This document shows positions 6,932 to 14,782 of a DNA stretch of 64,000 nt, in pieces. Position numbers and translations under genes: made by a program. Under the pieces are notes generated by a model. That model did not search any database, was not told where the DNA came from, and was given only the letters and a program-made list of their open reading frames with translations. Within the stretch, counting starts at the first letter, position 1; every line of letters starts with the position of its first letter. Source of the stretch: Rhodovulum bhavnagarense (GTDB taxonomy: Bacteria > Pseudomonadota > Alphaproteobacteria > Rhodobacterales > Rhodobacteraceae); the NCBI RefSeq assembly GCF_004343505.1, contig NZ_SLXU01000013.1, forward strand, positions 1 through 64,000. Reading direction: 5' to 3'.

Positions 6932-7039
6932 GGAGGGAGCGTATCGCATCGGTGGCGGTGAAGCGCGGGCCTCGCGTTGTTGCGGGTCGCATGCGGGGCC
7001 ACTATCCTTGCGAGCGTTTTGTCAGGCAAAGGCAGGATG

Positions 7040-7471
7040 ATGAGTATCAAGACCATCGGCGCGATCTTGGCCGGGCGGCCGCTGAACCAAGTCGGCCCAG
7101 GGGCCTCTTTGCAAGAGGCCGCGACCATCATGGCCGGGCAGGGTGTCGGCGCGCTTGCCGTGCTTGACGGTGACCGCCTGGTTGGCATCGTGTCAGAGCG
7201 CGATATCGTATTTCGCGCCGTCGCGCGTGGCCTACCGATGGATGGCACGACGGTGGCACAGGTCATGACGTGCGATCCTGTCACGGTCGAGATCGACCAT
7301 CCGATTTCCGACGCGCTTGCCGTCCGGCTTGGCGATGCATTCCGGCATCTTCCGGTCACCGATAACGGGCGCGTGGTGGGCCTTTTGTCCTACCGCGATA
7401 TCCCGGCCGAATACCTGATGCTTTTCGAACGCTTCCGCGAAATGTCGACGGCGCGTGCGGACGAGGCCTGA
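7040..7471 (+). CDS. Two-CBS-domain protein
   Basis: A small protein of about 143 residues made almost wholly of a tandem CBS pair (Bateman module). The first CBS covers roughly 8-62 (GASLQEAATIMAGQGVGALA, then RLVGIVSERDIVFRAVARG). The second covers roughly 70-125 (MTCDPVTVEIDHPISDALAV, RVVGLLSYRDIPAEYL). Such modules bind adenosyl ligands such as AMP, ATP, NAD or SAM and usually regulate a partner. No partner domain is attached and the target is unknown. Two adjacent ATGs (7037, 7040) follow AAAGGCAGG, and I prefer the second. A TTG further upstream at 6977 is less likely. It lies convergent with the histidine kinase gene at 7511. Confidence 0.88.
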   Translation: MSIKTIGAILAGRPLNQVGPGASLQEAATIMAGQGVGALAVLDGDRLVGIVSERDIVFRAVARGLPMDGTTVAQVMTCDPVTVEIDHPISDALAVRLGDAFRHLPVTDNGRVVGLLSYRDIPAEYLMLFERFREMSTARADEA

Positions 7472-7510: not shown

Positions 7511-10291
7511 TCAGCGCTCCGTCTCGCAAGTCTCGGGGCAGGCGCGCAGCGCCGCCAGCGCGCCGGCCAGCGCACCCAGGTTGATGGGTTTCGCAAACAG
7601 CCCGCGCACACGGTCGCCCTCTATGCGCGGATCGGTCAGGCGCCGGGCCAATGCCGTCATCACGAAAACCGGGATATCGGGCGTATCACGGCCAAGCGCC
7701 TCTACCAGGTCACCGCCATTCATGCCCGGCATATCGTAATCGGTGATGATGGCAGTCCAGGCGCGCGGTTCTTGCAGGGCGATCTCGCAGGCGATGTCGG
7801 GCATGTCGCAAAACGCGACCTCTGCGCCTTGTCGTTCGAGAAAGGCCTGCAAAACCTCGCCGACATGGTGATCGTCGTCGACGATAAGGAATGTCATTCC
7901 GGAAAGGTCCCATTCGACCTGTTGCCCCTCGTCCTGCGGGCTGGGGCCGGTGGCGGTCTGAACCGGCCAGTAAACCGAAAAGACCGACCCCCGCCCCGGT
8001 GCAGAGGAGACGTCGACCGCACCGCCGGCCCCGCGGACCAGCAGCGCGACCATGGTCAGGCCCAATCCGGTGCCACGCGCACCCTTGGTCGAGAAATGCG
8101 GATCGAAGATGCGCGCGCAGGTTTCTTCGTCCATGCCGGAGCCGGTGTCGCGGACCGAGATGCAGGCATAGCGAATGCCCGCCGACAGGGTGCCGACCCG
8201 CAATGCGCGTGCGCGGGTGGGATCGATCGTGCTGACGGTCAGGGCAATGCGTCCTCCCCCTTTGGGCATCGCGTCGCGCGCATTCAGGATGAGGTTCACA
8301 CAGATCTGGTTCAGCGTGCCGGCATCGCCGCGCAGCAACATCATCTCGTCGCCGATATCGACATCCAGCCCGACCGCGGGGGGCAGGCTGGACTGTGTCA
8401 TCGCCGCGACATCGCCCAAGGCCATGCGCAACTCGAAAACGCCGCCCTCGCGTGGTTCGGCGCCGAGGTCCAGCAGGCGATTGACCAGCCGACCGGCCCG
8501 CTGTCCGGCCCGGATGATCCGCTCTGCATGGTCGCGGGCGTCCTGCCCGGCGTGGTTATCGCCGGTAATCAGCGTGGCCGAGCCCTGGATCGCCGATAGC
8601 AGGTTGTTGAAGTCATGCGCCACCCCCGCCGCGAGCTGTGTCAGCGCCTCTTGGCGCTGCGCGCGTAACAGCGCGCGCTGCAACTCTTCCTGGCGGCGCT
8701 CTTCGGCGAGGCGTTCGGTGATGTCGCGGATGATCAGAACCGCGCCCTCGTCCTCGCGCGGGGAATAGGTGATCTCGTGGGTCTGTGCGGCGGTGTCGGG
8801 CCCCAGCCGTTCCAGCCGGTAGGCGCCGGCAAAGCTCTCGTCGCGGATGCCATAGCTTTTGCGCCAGTCGCGCCCAAGGGCCATGTCGGGATGATCAAAG
8901 CCCAAAAGCCGCGCCGCGGCCTGGTTCAGGTAGAGGATGCGGTGAACATCATTGAGGATCACGATGCCGTCAAAGGCCGCGTCGACGGCGGCGGCGCGCT
9001 GGCGCAACAGCGCCTCGATGGTCTTGAGCCGCGAAATGTTGGTCGCCGTGACCACCAGCGCGCCGTCGGCGTCGAGCCGCGCGCGCAACAGATAGCTCTT
9101 GCCATTGGAAAGCGTGATTTCCTGGCCATGGTTGGCAACGGCAAGCGCGCCCAGTTCGGCGCAGTCTGGCAAGCTGTCAAAGCCGGGTCGCGGCGGCGTC
9201 TGAACAAGGTGACTGTCGCGGTTTTCGCCAAAGCTGGTGCCTACCGCCCAGTTCGGCCCCGGCGCCGGGAAAGCCTGTTGCAGGGCCTCGTTGGACAGCA
9301 CCACCACCCCGTCGCGGTCAAGCATCAGGAACCCGCCCTGGGTCACTGCCAGCGCCTGCGTCATACGCTGGCGGATGCGGTCGCGCTCGATCTCGGCGGT
9401 GATGCGCCGGGTCACGTCATTCTGCGTTGCGACCAGGTGCCGGACTTGGCCATCGGGGCCATGCACCGGGTATAGCGTCAACTCGTTCCAGAACAATTCG
9501 CCGGACTTGCGAGCGTTATGCAGCAGGAATTTTCCTTCCTTGCGCTGCTCGACCGCCTCACGCAGCCGCTGCCGCTCGGTGGTGCCGGGCGGCTCTGCCG
9601 ACAGGAAATTGCAGTTCCTGCCGACCAGTTCTTCGGCGTCATAGCCCGTGATCCGTTCGAAACCGGGATTGACGTAGATCAGCGGGGCATCCTCTTTCGT
9701 GGTGTCGGCAATGGCAAAACCAGCGGGCGACCCCTCGATCACCGCGGCCAGCAGGGCGTTTTCCTCGGCCAGGCGTTCGGTCGCCAACGCCCGGGCGAAC
9801 AGGCCGGAATGGCGCTCGACCATGCGCACATGCTGGCGCGAAAACGCGCAGGCCGCCGGATGAAGGCAGATCACCGCCCGTTTCGGCCCTGTTTCCAGAT
9901 CGGGCAGCGGCACCGACAGCACGCTGAGGTGATCGCGGCAGAACACCCTGTGGCCCGGCGCGTCAAGCGCGCGCATGTCTGCGATGTTGCGCGGGCGCGA
10001 GAACGGGTCAAAGGGCGGCTGCCATTCCAGCCCGTGTCGCGCGGGGTCAGTGCCGCGAATGATCCGGGCGGTCCCGGCCCCGCAATCCTCGACCAGCACC
10101 GCCCTTTCCGCACCGGTCGCGCGGGCCAGCGCCTCGAACAGGGCCGCGATCGACAGGCCGGGCGTTGGCGCGCTGGCATAGGCCTCGACCGCGGCCAGCA
10201 GGCCGACCGTTTCCTCATGTGCACGCCGTTCCCGATCCCGTAGGATCTGGAGTTCCAGAAGTGCTTCGCGAAGGCGTTCGTTTTCCAGCAT
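7511..10291 (-). CDS. Soluble hybrid histidine kinase with a LOV photosensor domain
   Basis: A 926-residue sensor kinase with no membrane segment. The order of parts is an N-terminal coil (1-40), a GAF-like domain (about 46-170), a LOV-type PAS (about 180-295), two further PAS domains (about 305-420 and 430-530), HisKA with His559 in AAGVAHDFNNLL, HATPase (Asn666/Asn670, DTGSGM at 715-720) and a receiver domain (about 800-915) with phospho-acceptor Asp851 in DYDMPGMNG. In the LOV domain, GRNCNFL places Cys227 where the flavin-adduct cysteine lies. Asn259, Asn269 and Gln290 match the FMN-contacting positions, so blue-light sensing is likely (inference). It starts 16 bases after the stop of the FIST gene, so the two are probably co-transcribed. 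The output partner is unknown because no stand-alone response regulator or Hpt lies nearby. Confidence 0.9.
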   Translation of the reverse strand: MLENERLREALLELQILRDRERRAHEETVGLLAAVEAYASAPTPGLSIAALFEALARATGAERAVLVEDCGAGTARIIRGTDPARHGLEWQPPFDPFSRPRNIADMRALDAPGHRVFCRDHLSVLSVPLPDLETGPKRAVICLHPAACAFSRQHVRMVERHSGLFARALATERLAEENALLAAVIEGSPAGFAIADTTKEDAPLIYVNPGFERITGYDAEELVGRNCNFLSAEPPGTTERQRLREAVEQRKEGKFLLHNARKSGELFWNELTLYPVHGPDGQVRHLVATQNDVTRRITAEIERDRIRQRMTQALAVTQGGFLMLDRDGVVVLSNEALQQAFPAPGPNWAVGTSFGENRDSHLVQTPPRPGFDSLPDCAELGALAVANHGQEITLSNGKSYLLRARLDADGALVVTATNISRLKTIEALLRQRAAAVDAAFDGIVILNDVHRILYLNQAAARLLGFDHPDMALGRDWRKSYGIRDESFAGAYRLERLGPDTAAQTHEITYSPREDEGAVLIIRDITERLAEERRQEELQRALLRAQRQEALTQLAAGVAHDFNNLLSAIQGSATLITGDNHAGQDARDHAERIIRAGQRAGRLVNRLLDLGAEPREGGVFELRMALGDVAAMTQSSLPPAVGLDVDIGDEMMLLRGDAGTLNQICVNLILNARDAMPKGGGRIALTVSTIDPTRARALRVGTLSAGIRYACISVRDTGSGMDEETCARIFDPHFSTKGARGTGLGLTMVALLVRGAGGAVDVSSAPGRGSVFSVYWPVQTATGPSPQDEGQQVEWDLSGMTFLIVDDDHHVGEVLQAFLERQGAEVAFCDMPDIACEIALQEPRAWTAIITDYDMPGMNGGDLVEALGRDTPDIPVFVMTALARRLTDPRIEGDRVRGLFAKPINLGALAGALAALRACPETCETER

Positions 10292-10307
10292 GCGGGTGAT
10301 CCCGCCC

Positions 10308-11474
10308 TTACTTTGTAAACAGGATACAGGATACCATCAGGTTACCGTGACGATTTCCGGTGTTCAGGATCGGGCCTTGTTCCCCGAATGTGAAGACCAC
10401 GGAAAAGGCCACGCCCGGCAGGGCCTCGCGAACACCGGCGACGAGGTCATCGAGCCGGTCGCGCACGCCCAGCATGCAGCCACCGCAAAACACGATCATC
10501 GCCCCGGCGATGTCATCGGGCATCAGCCTGCCGGTTTCCAGCGCCAACCGCGCAACCCGGCCCGCGCGTTCGGTCAGGGCGCTGGCCGATCCGGTCATCA
10601 GCGTCAGGCGTTCGCCCTCTTCGATCCCGGCGAAAAGATGCAGCCCGCCCGCATCGTCGGCGGCGCTGGGATGGGCCAGCAGGAAATAGGGCACATCGGC
10701 AATCCGGTGGGTTTCGCGCCCCAGTGGCCAAAAGGTGGCCTCTGACAGGATCGAACAGGTCTGCCCCGGCGCGGCCTCGGTCAAAACCGCGCCGCCGGTC
10801 CATTCGGCATAGACCTCGGCGGCGGGGCGGCCGTCGATCTCGGCGATGCGGCGGCCGGTGACGCGGGTGACCACGCCGCTGTGTTCGGTCGGGGCATAGC
10901 CGTTCTGGTAGGCAAGCGAAATCTCGCCGGACGGGTAGAGAACCCCGATCGCCACGGCGCGGACCGAGGTCACACGATCCGCAAAGACCGACCATGCGCC
11001 GGCCACGCTGTTATCGGCGGCGCTGCCTCCGACGATGGGCGTGTCGGTGCCCACCACGTTTTCGATACCCTTCAGGATGCTTTCTTCCTGGCCGGGGGTG
11101 CCGTAGACCCAGACCATGTGCGGCCTCTCCCCGACGCGGTCGGCATTCGCGATGGCGGCCAATGTCGCGGCCTGTGCGGCGGCGGCCGGGTCGTCGCCAA
11201 GCTCGACGATGGCCGTTCCATAGGCGCCCTCGGCATCGGCGATTCCGAACAGAAATCCGGCCGCCGCACCGTTATGCGTCATCGTGCCGCAACACGAGGT
11301 TCCACCCATGACCCTGGTTCCGCGGTCGCAGGCCGCGTCCAGCAGGGGGGCGGGGTCCAGTCCTTCGTCCAGGTGGATGGTACAGAATTGCAGCGCGGTT
11401 GCCAGCGCGCGCAGATCCATTGCGATTTCCGAAATCTGATCTTGTGTATCGAATTCGCGAACGATGATTTTCAT
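10308..11474 (-). CDS. FIST-domain sensory protein (NosP-like candidate)
   Basis: A 388-residue protein with FIST_N (about 30-210; GGTSCCGTM, PIVGGSAADN) and FIST_C (about 215-375; ending FTFGEQGPI and a GN-rich tail). FIST proteins are ligand-sensing modules. The NosP branch binds haem and senses nitric oxide, and is usually encoded next to a histidine kinase that it controls. Here the gene directly precedes a hybrid kinase, as expected for a NosP/kinase pair, but I cannot assign the haem-ligand histidine by eye, so the NosP role is inference. The start is the ATG at 11474 (MKIIVREFDT) with AAGGGA upstream. The frame is open 39 bases further. A globin gene lies 99 bases upstream on the same strand. 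Confidence 0.85.
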   Translation of the reverse strand: MKIIVREFDTQDQISEIAMDLRALATALQFCTIHLDEGLDPAPLLDAACDRGTRVMGGTSCCGTMTHNGAAAGFLFGIADAEGAYGTAIVELGDDPAAAAQAATLAAIANADRVGERPHMVWVYGTPGQEESILKGIENVVGTDTPIVGGSAADNSVAGAWSVFADRVTSVRAVAIGVLYPSGEISLAYQNGYAPTEHSGVVTRVTGRRIAEIDGRPAAEVYAEWTGGAVLTEAAPGQTCSILSEATFWPLGRETHRIADVPYFLLAHPSAADDAGGLHLFAGIEEGERLTLMTGSASALTERAGRVARLALETGRLMPDDIAGAMIVFCGGCMLGVRDRLDDLVAGVREALPGVAFSVVFTFGEQGPILNTGNRHGNLMVSCILFTK

Positions 11475-11573
11475 TTGTTCCCTTGCCGCCCAAATGCGGC
11501 TTCGCTCTGCCAAATGGCACTAAGGTCACCCATCATGCAAAGCCCATGCCGTTGTCGTGCGGCTGATACCTGG

Positions 11574-11987
11574 TCAGTCCTCATGGGCGGCGGCAATCAT
11601 TTGTCTGGACAGCTCGCCGAAAATTCGTTGCCAGGCGGCGCGGTCCTGTGCGGAAAAATCACGGCCTAGCAAGTCGTCAAGCGCACAAACAAGTGCCTCG
11701 CCGACATGGCCATACTGATCGGGTGTCACGCCATAGCCCTTGTGACGCAGGGCCAGTTCGGACACCGCATCGGCAAGCCCCGCCGTGTTGTCGTGGCTAT
11801 CGATGATGTAATCGAGGGTTTCCACCAGTTTATTGCCTTGTAGGCCCATGTCGGTGCTGAAAAGCGTTCGCGCCGAGGGGTCGAGTCTGAACAGGTGATC
11901 GTAAAAGGCCGCGGCGATGTTGCCGGGGATCGTTGCGGCGATTGCCCAGGTGCGGCGAACCCTGTTGATGTCGGATACCGATGTCAC
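11574..11987 (-). CDS. Single-domain bacterial globin
   Basis: A 137-residue haem globin of the bacterial single-domain/flavohaemoglobin-related type with no reductase domain. The B10 tyrosine is Tyr29 (AAAFYDHLF), the CD1 phenylalanine is Phe43 (ARTLF) and the proximal F8 histidine is His82 (LRHKGYGV). Such proteins bind O2 or NO and act in delivery, NO detoxification or sensing. The GTG at 11987 is chosen as start because GGGAGA lies about 8 bases upstream and the length fits the family. The open frame extends to 12071 but encodes unrelated sequence. It is the first gene of an apparent operon with the FIST protein and the LOV kinase, suggesting that haem-gas chemistry and signalling are linked. 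Confidence 0.88.
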   Translation of the reverse strand: MTSVSDINRVRRTWAIAATIPGNIAAAFYDHLFRLDPSARTLFSTDMGLQGNKLVETLDYIIDSHDNTAGLADAVSELALRHKGYGVTPDQYGHVGEALVCALDDLLGRDFSAQDRAAWQRIFGELSRQMIAAAHED

Positions 11988-12346
11988 CGGCGTTTCTCCC
12001 GTGTCGCCATGGCCCCGAGTGCAATGGCGGCGATTGGCGCGCGGCCGTTCGCCTGGCGGATCGCCGACCACTGCGGCGCGCTATCGTTGTCCTTCATTTG
12101 CTGGGCGCGCGCAACATGTGATGATCGCATCCGCCGATCGGCGTGATCTCGTGACCCGGTCGTGGCAAGGGCGATATCGGCCGGGACAACCCCGATGAAA
12201 ATGATCGGAAATAGTGACCAAGTCACAGACCGGCGCTCCGGTTTCATGTTCACCATACCGCAATCGGCCGCGCTTGCTGCGGCTTGCGATGGCGACCGGG
12301 CCGGTCCCACATGCCGCCGCAACAGGTCCAACCATCGGGAGCCCCC
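11988..12346. other. Divergent intergenic region, globin operon / NifX-like gene
   Basis: These 359 bases separate the minus-strand globin operon from the plus-strand NifX-like gene and must hold both promoters. I see no protein gene. The only clear dyad is GTGAC-CAA-GTCAC at 12214-12226. I looked for FNR/NNR-type TTG-N8-CAA dyads in the region and found none that I would defend. Confidence 0.6.
12214..12226. promoter_or_regulatory. Perfect 5-bp dyad, possible operator
   Basis: GTGAC and GTCAC flank a 3-base CAA spacer in the divergent promoter region between the globin operon and the NifX-like gene. The symmetry and position suit a dimeric regulator, but 13 bases is short and could arise by chance. 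No regulator is assigned. Confidence 0.3.
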
Positions 12347-12712
12347 ATGCGTATTGCCGTTGCCAGTCAGAATTTCCGCACCGTGACGTCCCATGTCGGC
12401 CGCACGCGCCGTTTTTTTGTTTTCGAGGCGGTTGCAGGACAGCCCGCGACCGAGATCGAACGGATCGACCTTCCCAAGGGTATGGCCTTGCATGATTTTT
12501 CGGGCACGGGGCACCATCCTCTTTACGATGTCGAGGCGATCATCGCCGGCAGCGTCGGGCGCGGTTTCGTCCAGCGCATGGGGGCGATGGGCATACGCGC
12601 AGTGGCCACGGCCGAGACCGACCCGGCAGAGGCCGCCCGCGCCCTTGTCGAAGACCGCCTTGCCCCGCCCGCGCCACACGATCACGACGATGCGGGGTGC
12701 TCGCACGATTGA
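12347..12712 (+). CDS. NifX/NafY-type (dinitrogenase FeMo-cofactor fold) protein
   Basis: A 121-residue protein with the NifX/NifB C-terminal fold (Pfam Nitro_FeMo-Co). It starts MRIAVASQNFRTVTSHVGR, followed by the conserved central GxGHHPLYD and SVGRGFVQRMGAMGIRAV segments. The last 15 residues are rich in His and Asp with one Cys (HDHDDAGCSHD), suggesting metal binding. In nitrogen fixers this fold carries iron-molybdenum cofactor precursors, but stand-alone copies are common in non-fixers and have no settled role. No nif gene is present here. The ATG at 12347 follows CGGGAG. It is divergent from the globin/FIST/kinase operon, so a shared regulation is possible but unproven. Confidence 0.8.
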   Translation: MRIAVASQNFRTVTSHVGRTRRFFVFEAVAGQPATEIERIDLPKGMALHDFSGTGHHPLYDVEAIIAGSVGRGFVQRMGAMGIRAVATAETDPAEAARALVEDRLAPPAPHDHDDAGCSHD

Positions 12713-12751: not shown

Positions 12752-13651
12752 CTATGTCACGCGCGCGGGCAACGTCAGGCCGCGCAGCAATTCGTCGGTT
12801 TCCATTGCGCGTTTGCCTTCGCGCTGGGCCTGCACGATCTCGACCGCGCCAGTTTCGCAGGCAATCACCAGCCCGCCCAGCACCTGCCCCGACGGGCCGT
12901 TTCCTTCGGTTACGCGGGCACGCAGCAGTTTCAGACGTTCGTCTCCTGCCACGCACCATGCGCCGGGAAAGGGCGAAAGGCCGTTGATGTGGTGTGCCAC
13001 CTGATCGGCGGGGCGGTTCCAGTCGACCCGTGCCTCGGCCTTGTCGATCTTGGCGGCGTAGGTCACGCCGGCCTCGGGTTGCGGCTGCGGCGTCAGGTCG
13101 GGCAGGTGGGCCAGCGCCTGCACGATCAGCCGCGCGCCCATGGCCGACAGCCGGTCATGCAAGTCGCCCGTGGTTTCCTCGGCCCCGATCGGGGTGGCCT
13201 CGCGCATTAGCACGGGCCCGGTATCAAGCCCTGCCTCCATCCGCATGATGCAGATGCCGGTTTCCGCGTCGCCCGCCATGATCGCCCGGTGGATCGGCGC
13301 CGCCCCGCGCCAGCGCGGCAACAACGAGGCATGGATGTTCAGGCAGCCATGGCGCGGCGCGTCCAGCACCGGCCGCGGCAGGATCAGGCCATAGGCGACT
13401 ACAACGGCGACATCCGCCTGTAGCGCGGCAAAGTCTGCCTGCGCCTCGGCCCCTTTCAGCGAAACGGGGTGGCGAATGGGCAGGCCCAGAACCTCTGCCC
13501 GCGCATGGACGGGGCTCGGGCGATCCTTCTTGCCGCGCCCGGCAGGGCGGGGGGGCTGGCAATAGACGCAGGCGATGTCGTGACCCGCATCCACCAGCGC
13601 ATCCAGAACCGGCACGGAGAACTCGGGCGTGCCCATGAAGACGATGCGCAT
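12752..13651 (-). CDS. fmt: Methionyl-tRNA formyltransferase
   Basis: This enzyme formylates Met-tRNAfMet from 10-formyl-THF to make the initiator tRNA. The 299-residue protein starts [16 protein letters not shown]. It carries the formyl-transferase core with the catalytic segment [20 protein letters not shown] (Asn, His) and [13 protein letters not shown], then the C-terminal tRNA-binding domain. It begins one base after the stop of the upstream def-like gene. It forms the third gene of a def/def-like/fmt operon, which pairs formylation with deformylation. Confidence 0.97.
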
Positions 13652-14155
13652 TCAGCGCCTCCGCTTTTCGTATTTCCTAAGCAGGCGGTCCCGTTTCAGC
13701 CGCGACAGGTTGTCGAAATACATCCGCCCGTTCAGATGGTCGACCTGGTGCTGCACCGAGGTCGCCCAAAGCAGGACGAAATCCTTCTCCTCTACCTCGC
13801 CACCCTCGTTCAGGAACCGCACCGTCACCGCGCGGGGGCGTTTCACGCTGGCCCAGACGCCGGGCAGGCAAGGGCTGGCCTCGTCATGCGTGCGCAGTTT
13901 TTCCGAGTAAGCGACGATTTCGGGGTTCGCCATGCGGATCGCCTGACCGCGTTCCTCGGAACAATCCACCACCGCCAGACGTTGCAGCACGCCGATCTGG
14001 TTGGCCGCCAGCCCAACGCCTTGGCCCGGCATGGCCTCCATCGTGTCGATCATGTCGTCCCAGATTGCGCGGATCTCGTCGGTGATAGTCTCGACCGGTG
14101 CGACCGCGGTGGCCAGCCGAGGGTCGGGCCATTGCAGAATGGGCCGGACACTCAT
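13652..14155 (-). CDS. Peptide deformylase-like protein lacking the catalytic Glu
   Basis: This is a 167-residue paralogue of the deformylase encoded just upstream. Motif 1 is intact (GVGLAANQIG, about 46-55). Motif 2 is altered: around Cys96 it reads EASPCLPGV where the family has EGCLS. Motif 3 reads QHQVDH at 135-140, so the metal-binding His136 and His140 remain but the catalytic Glu is Gln137 (codon CAG, read directly). The canonical Glu acts as general acid/base, so deformylase activity is doubtful. A regulatory or changed-substrate role is possible. The start ATG at 14155 overlaps the stop of def by 4 bases and fmt follows at once, so expression is coupled. Confidence 0.9.
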   Translation of the reverse strand: MSVRPILQWPDPRLATAVAPVETITDEIRAIWDDMIDTMEAMPGQGVGLAANQIGVLQRLAVVDCSEERGQAIRMANPEIVAYSEKLRTHDEASPCLPGVWASVKRPRAVTVRFLNEGGEVEEKDFVLLWATSVQHQVDHLNGRMYFDNLSRLKRDRLLRKYEKRRR

Positions 14156-14679
14156 GCCGTGTCCCGAGACCGCTCGCGCTTGAGTTTCTTCATCCGACGG
14201 GTGATGAGCTGTCGCTTGAGCGGCTTGAGATAGTCGATGAACAACGTACCGTTGAGATGGTCGATCTCGTGCTGCACGCAGGTCGCCCATAGACCCGACA
14301 GTCGGTCCTCGTGCGGATCGCCCGCGGGGTCGGTCCATTGCACGACAACCTCGGCGGGGCGGGTGACCTCGGCCCAGGTTTCGGGGATCGAAAGGCATCC
14401 CTCTTCGTGAATGTTGCGATCGTCCGATTCCCATACGATCTGCGGGTTGAACATGGCAAGCGGGCGGGGCGGGGCGCCCTCGTCCTTGGCGCAGTCCATG
14501 ACGATCAGGCGATGCAGGATACCGATTTGTGGCGCGGCCAGCCCGATGCCCGGCGCGTCATACATGGTTTCCAGCATGTCCTCGGCGAGTTTCTGCATCG
14601 CCTCGTCGATATCAGAAACGGGGTCGGCCACAGTTTTCAGGCGCGGATCTGGATGGATCAGGATCGGTCTAATGCTCAT
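14152..14679 (-). CDS. def: Peptide deformylase
   Basis: This metalloenzyme removes the N-formyl group from new polypeptides. The 175-residue protein has all three family motifs: GIGLAAPQIG (about 44-53), EEGCLSIP with metal ligand Cys95, and QHEIDH with His137, catalytic Glu138 and His141. The frame is open well upstream, but family starts look like MSIRPILIHPD. The ATG at 14679 fits, and another ATG 6 bases earlier is possible. No strong ribosome-binding site is visible. It is the first gene of the def/def-like/fmt operon and is divergent from the aminotransferase-fold gene at 14783. Confidence 0.96.
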   Translation of the reverse strand: MSIRPILIHPDPRLKTVADPVSDIDEAMQKLAEDMLETMYDAPGIGLAAPQIGILHRLIVMDCAKDEGAPPRPLAMFNPQIVWESDDRNIHEEGCLSIPETWAEVTRPAEVVVQWTDPAGDPHEDRLSGLWATCVQHEIDHLNGTLFIDYLKPLKRQLITRRMKKLKRERSRDTA

Positions 14680-14782
14680 GATCATGTGATTTAGGGGATG
14701 TGCGGGCCTTGCGCAATGCGGCGAAGTCTTGCGTCCGTGTTTCCAGCCGCTAGCTTGGCAGCGCAGCACCAAGGAGCGTTTG

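Follow-up and report, generated by a model that had tools for sequence, protein, structure and literature searches.

A FIST protein gene paired with a LOV hybrid histidine kinase gene in Rhodovulum bhavnagarense and its relatives: a candidate cassette for light and gas sensing

Proteins of the FIST family are encoded beside histidine kinase genes in several bacteria. In the available text on NosP, the hemin-bound protein binds and inhibits the kinase encoded next to it (NahK/ErcS type, or NosK of Burkholderia), more strongly with nitric oxide (NO), and thereby controls it (PMC12570481). In the VpsV-VpsS system of Vibrio cholerae, too, the gene upstream of a hybrid kinase gene encodes a FIST protein; that kinase is predicted to be cytoplasmic and acts on biofilm and quorum control. 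The available text of its two sources mentions no LOV domain or globin for it (PMC4398556, PMC8738867). H-NOX proteins, which bind NO on haem, are encoded beside kinases or GGDEF proteins, and according to the same partly available source FIST genes lie near some hnox genes (PMC8738867). LOV histidine kinases combine the LOV fold and its cysteine with a kinase. LOV kinases, FIST genes adjoining a kinase gene and FIST genes in the vicinity of H-NOX are each on record, and in the literature we found, bacterial NO sensing and blue-light sensing stand as separate inputs to biofilm control. One review covers both FIST/NosP and LOV and, in its available text, treats them apart (PMC8846402), and another contains the terms NosP and globin (PMC9500659). 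Among the matches listed, mostly without subscription papers, none described the pairing of a FIST protein with either a LOV kinase or a globin gene. Here we analyse a locus with all three genes in a stretch of 64,000 nucleotides from Rhodovulum bhavnagarense (contig NZ_SLXU01000013.1, positions 1 to 64,000; the window). We put the chance that it is a signalling cassette, with the FIST protein as a separate sensor subunit of the LOV hybrid kinase, at about even.

On the minus strand, the genes of globin (11574-11987), FIST (10308-11474) and LOV hybrid kinase (7511-10291) follow one another head to tail, with gaps of 99 bases between globin and FIST and 16 bases between FIST and kinase. This arrangement, read from the window in the original prediction, is borne out by the open reading frame (ORF) coordinates and the Pfam domains, and the three genes may form one transcript.

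The partnership of FIST and LOV kinase is supported by its recurrence across genera. We searched a family sample of 295 genomes, one per genus, with the FIST protein and found 16 matches. Besides the window's own genome, these were 14 with 45-60% identity and a weak one with 28% (G210). Within the genus, 5 of 16 genomes matched, including the window's own. The close set comprised 19 genomes (15 of the family sample, with the window's, and four congeners), and the surroundings of the other 18 were compared. A related hybrid kinase gene lay downstream of FIST in 18 of the 19, directly in 17 and behind an H-NOX gene in G134; the one exception, G017, has a GGDEF-EAL protein there. Fifteen of the 17 direct pairs had gaps of 11-24 bases; the genes overlapped by one base in G682 and were 131 bases apart in G215. 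The reverse search with kinase residues 1-310 (threshold 1e-25) matched 14 of the 295 genomes, 13 of them (window included) beside FIST; the fourteenth, G135, matched in the LOV part only. Recurrence at 18/19 FIST loci and 13/14 reverse matches indicates that the pairing is more than chance. A globin gene was linked to FIST in 12 of the 19 genomes, directly upstream in nine (the window's genome G000, G035, G072, G139, G180, G215, G243, G264 and G675) and one or two genes off in three (G004, G185 and G213). Among metagenome-assembled genomes (MAGs), one of Oceanicola carries globin, FIST and LOV kinase, running to the contig end, and one of Paracoccus haematequi carries FIST, H-NOX, kinase and regulator. 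At a threshold of 1e-10, 385 genomes sampled across the class (a few family members repeated) gave six FIST matches: the window's genome, G210, the weak matches G439, G486 and G578, and G601, a close match from outside the family. Relatives among named records come from Alteromonas, Aeromonas and archaea.

The FIST protein (388 residues) matched both family domains above the Pfam cut-offs: FIST_N at 3.7e-22 (79.6 bits, cut-off 23.2) and FIST_C at 2.9e-20 (73.2 bits, cut-off 28.5). Like a NosP gene, its gene adjoins a histidine kinase gene, and the adjacency, here with a 16-base gap, is kept in relatives. The AlphaFold model (mean predicted local distance difference test score, pLDDT, 94.2) is nearest among solved folds to the FIST domain of FBXO22, followed by barbiturase/cyanuric acid hydrolase, at 8-11% identity. 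From this modelled fold and the conserved residues, no haem ligand can be named. FIST proteins of archaeal origin (Borrarchaeum MAG; L006 6641-7897 and L007 6671-7897) have 31-33% identity to that of the window and the CxGC motif in common with it.

The kinase (926 residues) was matched by PAS_9 (4e-26, the LOV domain), further PAS models, HisKA (2.7e-11), HATPase_c (3.4e-19) and Response_reg (2.3e-13). The last three, all above cut-off, identify a hybrid histidine kinase and occupy residues 550-609 (8465-8644), 655-778 (7958-8329) and 802-910 (7562-7888), with His559 as phospho-acceptor and Asp851 in the receiver, both assigned by motif and placed with the help of alignments. The LOV domain spans residues 180-300 (9392-9754). 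Its best solved matches are LOV proteins, including Brucella LOV-HK, the model of residues 1-310 (mean pLDDT 87.0) resembles LOV proteins, and alignments and model agree on the cysteine of the GxNC motif, here GRNC with Cys227. In front of it, residues 44-183 (9743-10162) probably form a GAF-like domain, which the original prediction did not include, as suggested by the model, by matches to bacteriophytochromes and by a GAF_2 match just below cut-off in the homologue at L008; Pfam gave no GAF match in the window kinase itself. Residues 1-40 (10172-10291) precede this domain and are helical from 2 to 40 in the model. No membrane domain was among the domain matches, no transmembrane predictor having been run. 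The curated model for blue-light-activated histidine kinases (NF052306) scored 90.4 bits against a threshold of 450, over residues 168-299 only. In contrast to LOV histidine kinases, the window kinase thus fails that model beyond the LOV domain and has a GAF-like domain, HisKA and receiver domains and a FIST partner gene.

The globin (137 residues) matched Pfam Globin at 2.9e-17 (63.7 bits, cut-off 22), and its best solved sequence matches were 3s1i (1.5e-19) and 3ubc (1e-18), 'Hemoglobin-like flavoprotein'. We take the 3s1i type to be HGbI of Methylacidiphilum; the genomic context of these single-domain globins differs from that of the window. A flavohaemoprotein (Hmp) was not indicated: residues 34-160 of the 165-residue ORF matched positions 6-135 of the 399 in that model, at 50.7 bits against 432.

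Next to the domains of known type, the start of the kinase is conserved. The 17 kinase rows open with residues like ERLREALLEL (the wider motif resembling ERLREALLEL..LR.RE), E5, L7, R8, E9, L11 and E13 being invariant, and in 18 aligned N-terminal rows E5, L7, R8, L11, E13 and L31 are invariant. The segment could also be aligned in a FIST-adjacent GGDEF protein (L008) and in two H-NOX-type kinases. A longer model of 169 positions, run on the 295 genomes at a threshold of 1e-4, matched 24, in 16 of which the match began at model position 3 or lower. Fifteen of these 16 belong to FIST loci, in G134 with an intervening H-NOX gene, and one, G242, to an H-NOX locus; the remaining eight matches cover only later, GAF-like positions. 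Among the 16, only the rows of G253, G017 and G242 are from outside the training set, that of G017 being a GGDEF-EAL protein. A 45-residue model, run on 358 called proteins, missed the FIST-adjacent proteins of G134 (E 0.18), G601 (1.4), G017, L004, L009 and L010, and gave no useful E-value for kinases away from FIST (two in the window's genome and the second kinases of G685 and G688). Judged by these alignments, the N-terminal segment is the best candidate for a FIST dock. As an exclusive mark of FIST partners the motif is weakened by G242 and by the FIST-adjacent proteins that the 45-residue model missed. The G242 locus (L129, 2345-7494) encodes an H-NOX protein, a 1328-residue kinase and a response regulator, has no FIST gene, and lies near polysaccharide export and pyruvyl-transferase genes; going by its genes, we regard it as the same cassette with H-NOX alone.

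The regulator, the RTX and polysaccharide neighbours and the H-NOX versions found in relatives, all absent from the original prediction, bear on function more than the window alone. A regulator gene of about 204 codons directly follows 13 of 18 kinase genes, and one regulator that was scanned has a receiver and a GerE (LuxR-type) domain. In G675 it stands two genes on, in G185 the contig ends, and in the window's genome, G253 and G682 none is next door. Two regulator homologues (47% and 43%) are encoded in the window's genome, each immediately behind a different hybrid kinase gene. The congeners G685 and G688 have a second kinase gene in the same stretch as FIST, LOV kinase and regulator, suggesting that a regulator of this sort serves more than one kinase. 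Eight of the 19 stretches contain a member of an RTX-repeat group and 10 a member of the sugar-nucleotide or glycosyltransferase groups, one member of each group having been scanned with Pfam. In the available text of a study of Paracoccus denitrificans, an RTX agglutinin mediates biofilm formation, is scarcer in an hnoX mutant and is influenced by NO/H-NOX (PMC5588039).

An H-NOX gene lies between FIST and kinase at two loci, G134 and L003, neither with a linked globin, and both keep the stretch HVEVxKLYP. This stretch presumably holds the proximal histidine of H-NOX. In contrast to described H-NOX systems, only these two FIST cassettes include H-NOX; most others have a globin. The window's genome has an H-NOX gene away from the cassette, at G000:C2:191141-191608. 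FIST genes also neighbour a GGDEF-EAL protein (G017) and a kinase with an Hpt domain (G601). At L008 (3-2222, a Rhodospirillales MAG) a FIST gene directly precedes that of a GGDEF protein, which also contains PAS and GAF_2-like stretches, and in G210 (L043, 3504-5507) a distant FIST gene directly precedes that of a nucleotide cyclase, in which HNOBA matched below its cut-off.

Gene order, its conservation, domain make-up, conserved residues and the neighbours in relatives were observed directly; each signalling step, the ligand and the output we infer as follows. The FIST protein would bind a ligand. The analogy to NosP puts NO on haem first among the candidates, and the H-NOX and globin genes found with FIST likewise put a diatomic gas first. 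The protein would dock on the N-terminal helix or GAF-like part of the kinase, which would also receive blue light by way of its LOV cysteine, and the two inputs would govern autophosphorylation at His559 and the state of the receiver residue Asp851. Phosphate would then pass to a NarL/LuxR-type regulator, whose gene adjoins that of the kinase in most relatives. In the window strain this would probably be one of the two homologues elsewhere, both partner and output being deduced from relatives only. The output would be surface attachment, through an RTX adhesin and polysaccharide. For the globin, local binding or removal of NO or oxygen is the most likely role, by which it would tune the gas signal.

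A number of observations weigh against this reading, several of them through explanations of their own. The original prediction assigned the FIST protein to the type that includes the NO sensor NosP; our results did not support membership in NosP itself. The curated NosP equivalog model reached 34.9 bits against 450, over residues 36-240 of the 401-residue ORF only, and the near_NosP_CTERM model of NahK/ErcS-type kinases gave the window kinase 75.3 bits against 400. In addition to these low scores, the LOV domain and the globin gene set the window apart from NosP-kinase pairs, as does the LuxR-type regulator in its relatives. With the NosP model so far below its cut-off, NO sensing by the FIST protein is an analogy. 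A PDB sequence search at E<=1 found no relative of the protein, and in the available text on FBXO22 its FIST domain has no obvious ligand pocket and binds a partner in a manner insensitive to haem (PMC11185555). The FIST protein might instead respond to a different cue from NO, for instance a small metabolite or the redox state of thiols, by way of a CxxC pair and His376, so that light and redox would be merged. Cys330, Cys333 and His376 are indeed identical in all 21 close rows, and the CxGC motif occurs at 6 of 14 further loci (L004, L006, L007, L044, L056 and L005, where L044 and L056 are one gene), the other eight having CxGR or no such motif. The H-NOX and globin genes that accompany FIST point to a diatomic gas instead, and we regard the non-NO alternative as unlikely. 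The locus also draws attention to a FIST subfamily that bears a CxxC pair. The light input can be questioned in a similar way, as LOV could be a redox sensor or a relic within a plain FIST-kinase system. The cysteine is gone in G253 and G213, where the FIST-kinase pair stays, and the window has Asn228 where all 14 other cysteine-bearing aligned rows have Arg, a change that might affect recovery or the binding of flavin. The two cysteine losses, of which G213 has a globin nearby and G253 does not, are too few to be tied to globin loss. Of the 17 kinases encoded directly after FIST, 15 retain the cysteine, and Gln290 is present in every one of the 17 aligned rows; a system blind to light seems rather improbable to us.

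The globin is the less constant part of the cassette. Joint conservation of the three genes, by which the original prediction was to be checked, held for FIST and kinase and only partly for the globin: against the 12 genomes with linkage stand seven without (G017, G134, G230, G253, G682, G685 and G688), including three of the four FIST-bearing congeners, which have only more distant globins elsewhere in the genome. The globin by itself is common, with matches in 66 of the 295 family genomes; close homologues in G173, G045 and G092 are without FIST, that of G092 directly preceding a nitrite-reductase-like gene. Such a globin could accompany the operon without any part in signalling, as a detoxifying NO dioxygenase or an oxygen buffer. 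The residues agree with a single-domain haemoglobin, as the proximal His82 together with Gln50, Tyr29 and Phe43 is identical in 15 of 15 aligned rows (13 FIST-linked, window included). The tree speaks for a closer tie, as does the position directly before FIST in nine of 19 cassettes: FIST-linked globins cluster (4 label changes versus 10.4 in shuffles, 0 of 500 as low), and 12 of 13 fall in one 16-row group, which is weakly supported inside, inner branches being mostly weak. We rate the detoxification explanation at just short of an even chance. Returning to the FIST protein as sensor subunit of the kinase, a further point on the negative side is the N-terminal motif of the kinase beside H-NOX at G242, where a stretch of 13 kb holds no FIST gene. 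The window cassette adjoins no regulator and no RTX or polysaccharide gene, and the scanned neighbours of the two regulator homologues are other kinases and FeoB, DUF4198, MgtC, integrase and MobA genes. The window's genome gave no match to cd1 nitrite reductase, NirK not having been searched. In 20 upstream stretches, some with approximate starts, neither a strict FNR box nor a NorR-like site occurred (0/20). A relaxed TTG-N8-CAA was present in two (G139 and G213), the window not among them, and an NO-responsive promoter was rejected.

A more specific form of the sensor-subunit reading is a light-gated gas sensor, in which the kinase would receive NO status from a haem-bearing FIST protein and blue light through its own LOV domain. 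FIST and H-NOX would be exchangeable sensors on one kinase chassis by way of the N-terminal helix, with the globin as tuner. The decision on attachment would be three-way (light, NO and oxygen), because haem-nitrosyl is photolabile and the globin would remove NO when oxygen is present. We consider this form quite unlikely. In either form, the cassette may let a cell weigh light and a gas such as NO in choosing its lifestyle. With FIST on a LOV kinase, often with a globin and sometimes with H-NOX, the integration of NO and light would become directly testable with three small proteins.

Gene starts, and the ribosome-binding sites of globin and FIST, were picked by eye. The kinase gene starts with ATG at 10291 and its stop ends at 7511. 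The FIST gene starts with ATG at 11474, preceded by AAGGGA, and its stop ends at 10308; the mechanical ORF begins farther upstream with TTG at 11513. For the globin we took the GTG at 11987, preceded by GGGAGAA, whereas the mechanical ORF begins with GTG at 12071. Downstream of the kinase lies a convergent CBS-domain gene (6977-7471, plus strand). In two congeners, a RES/Xre toxin-antitoxin pair stands upstream of FIST at the globin's place (L052 7860-8959 and L053 3653-4752, the latter scanned). Upstream of the globin is a small divergent gene (12347-12712, plus strand), which we take to resemble the NifX/dinitrogenase-cofactor family, and between the two a 13-base dyad, GTGACCAAGTCAC, is found at 12214. 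Beyond it, beside fmt (12752-13651, Pfam-scanned), two adjoining small minus-strand genes related to each other (13652-14155 and 14152-14685) presumably resemble peptide deformylase copies.

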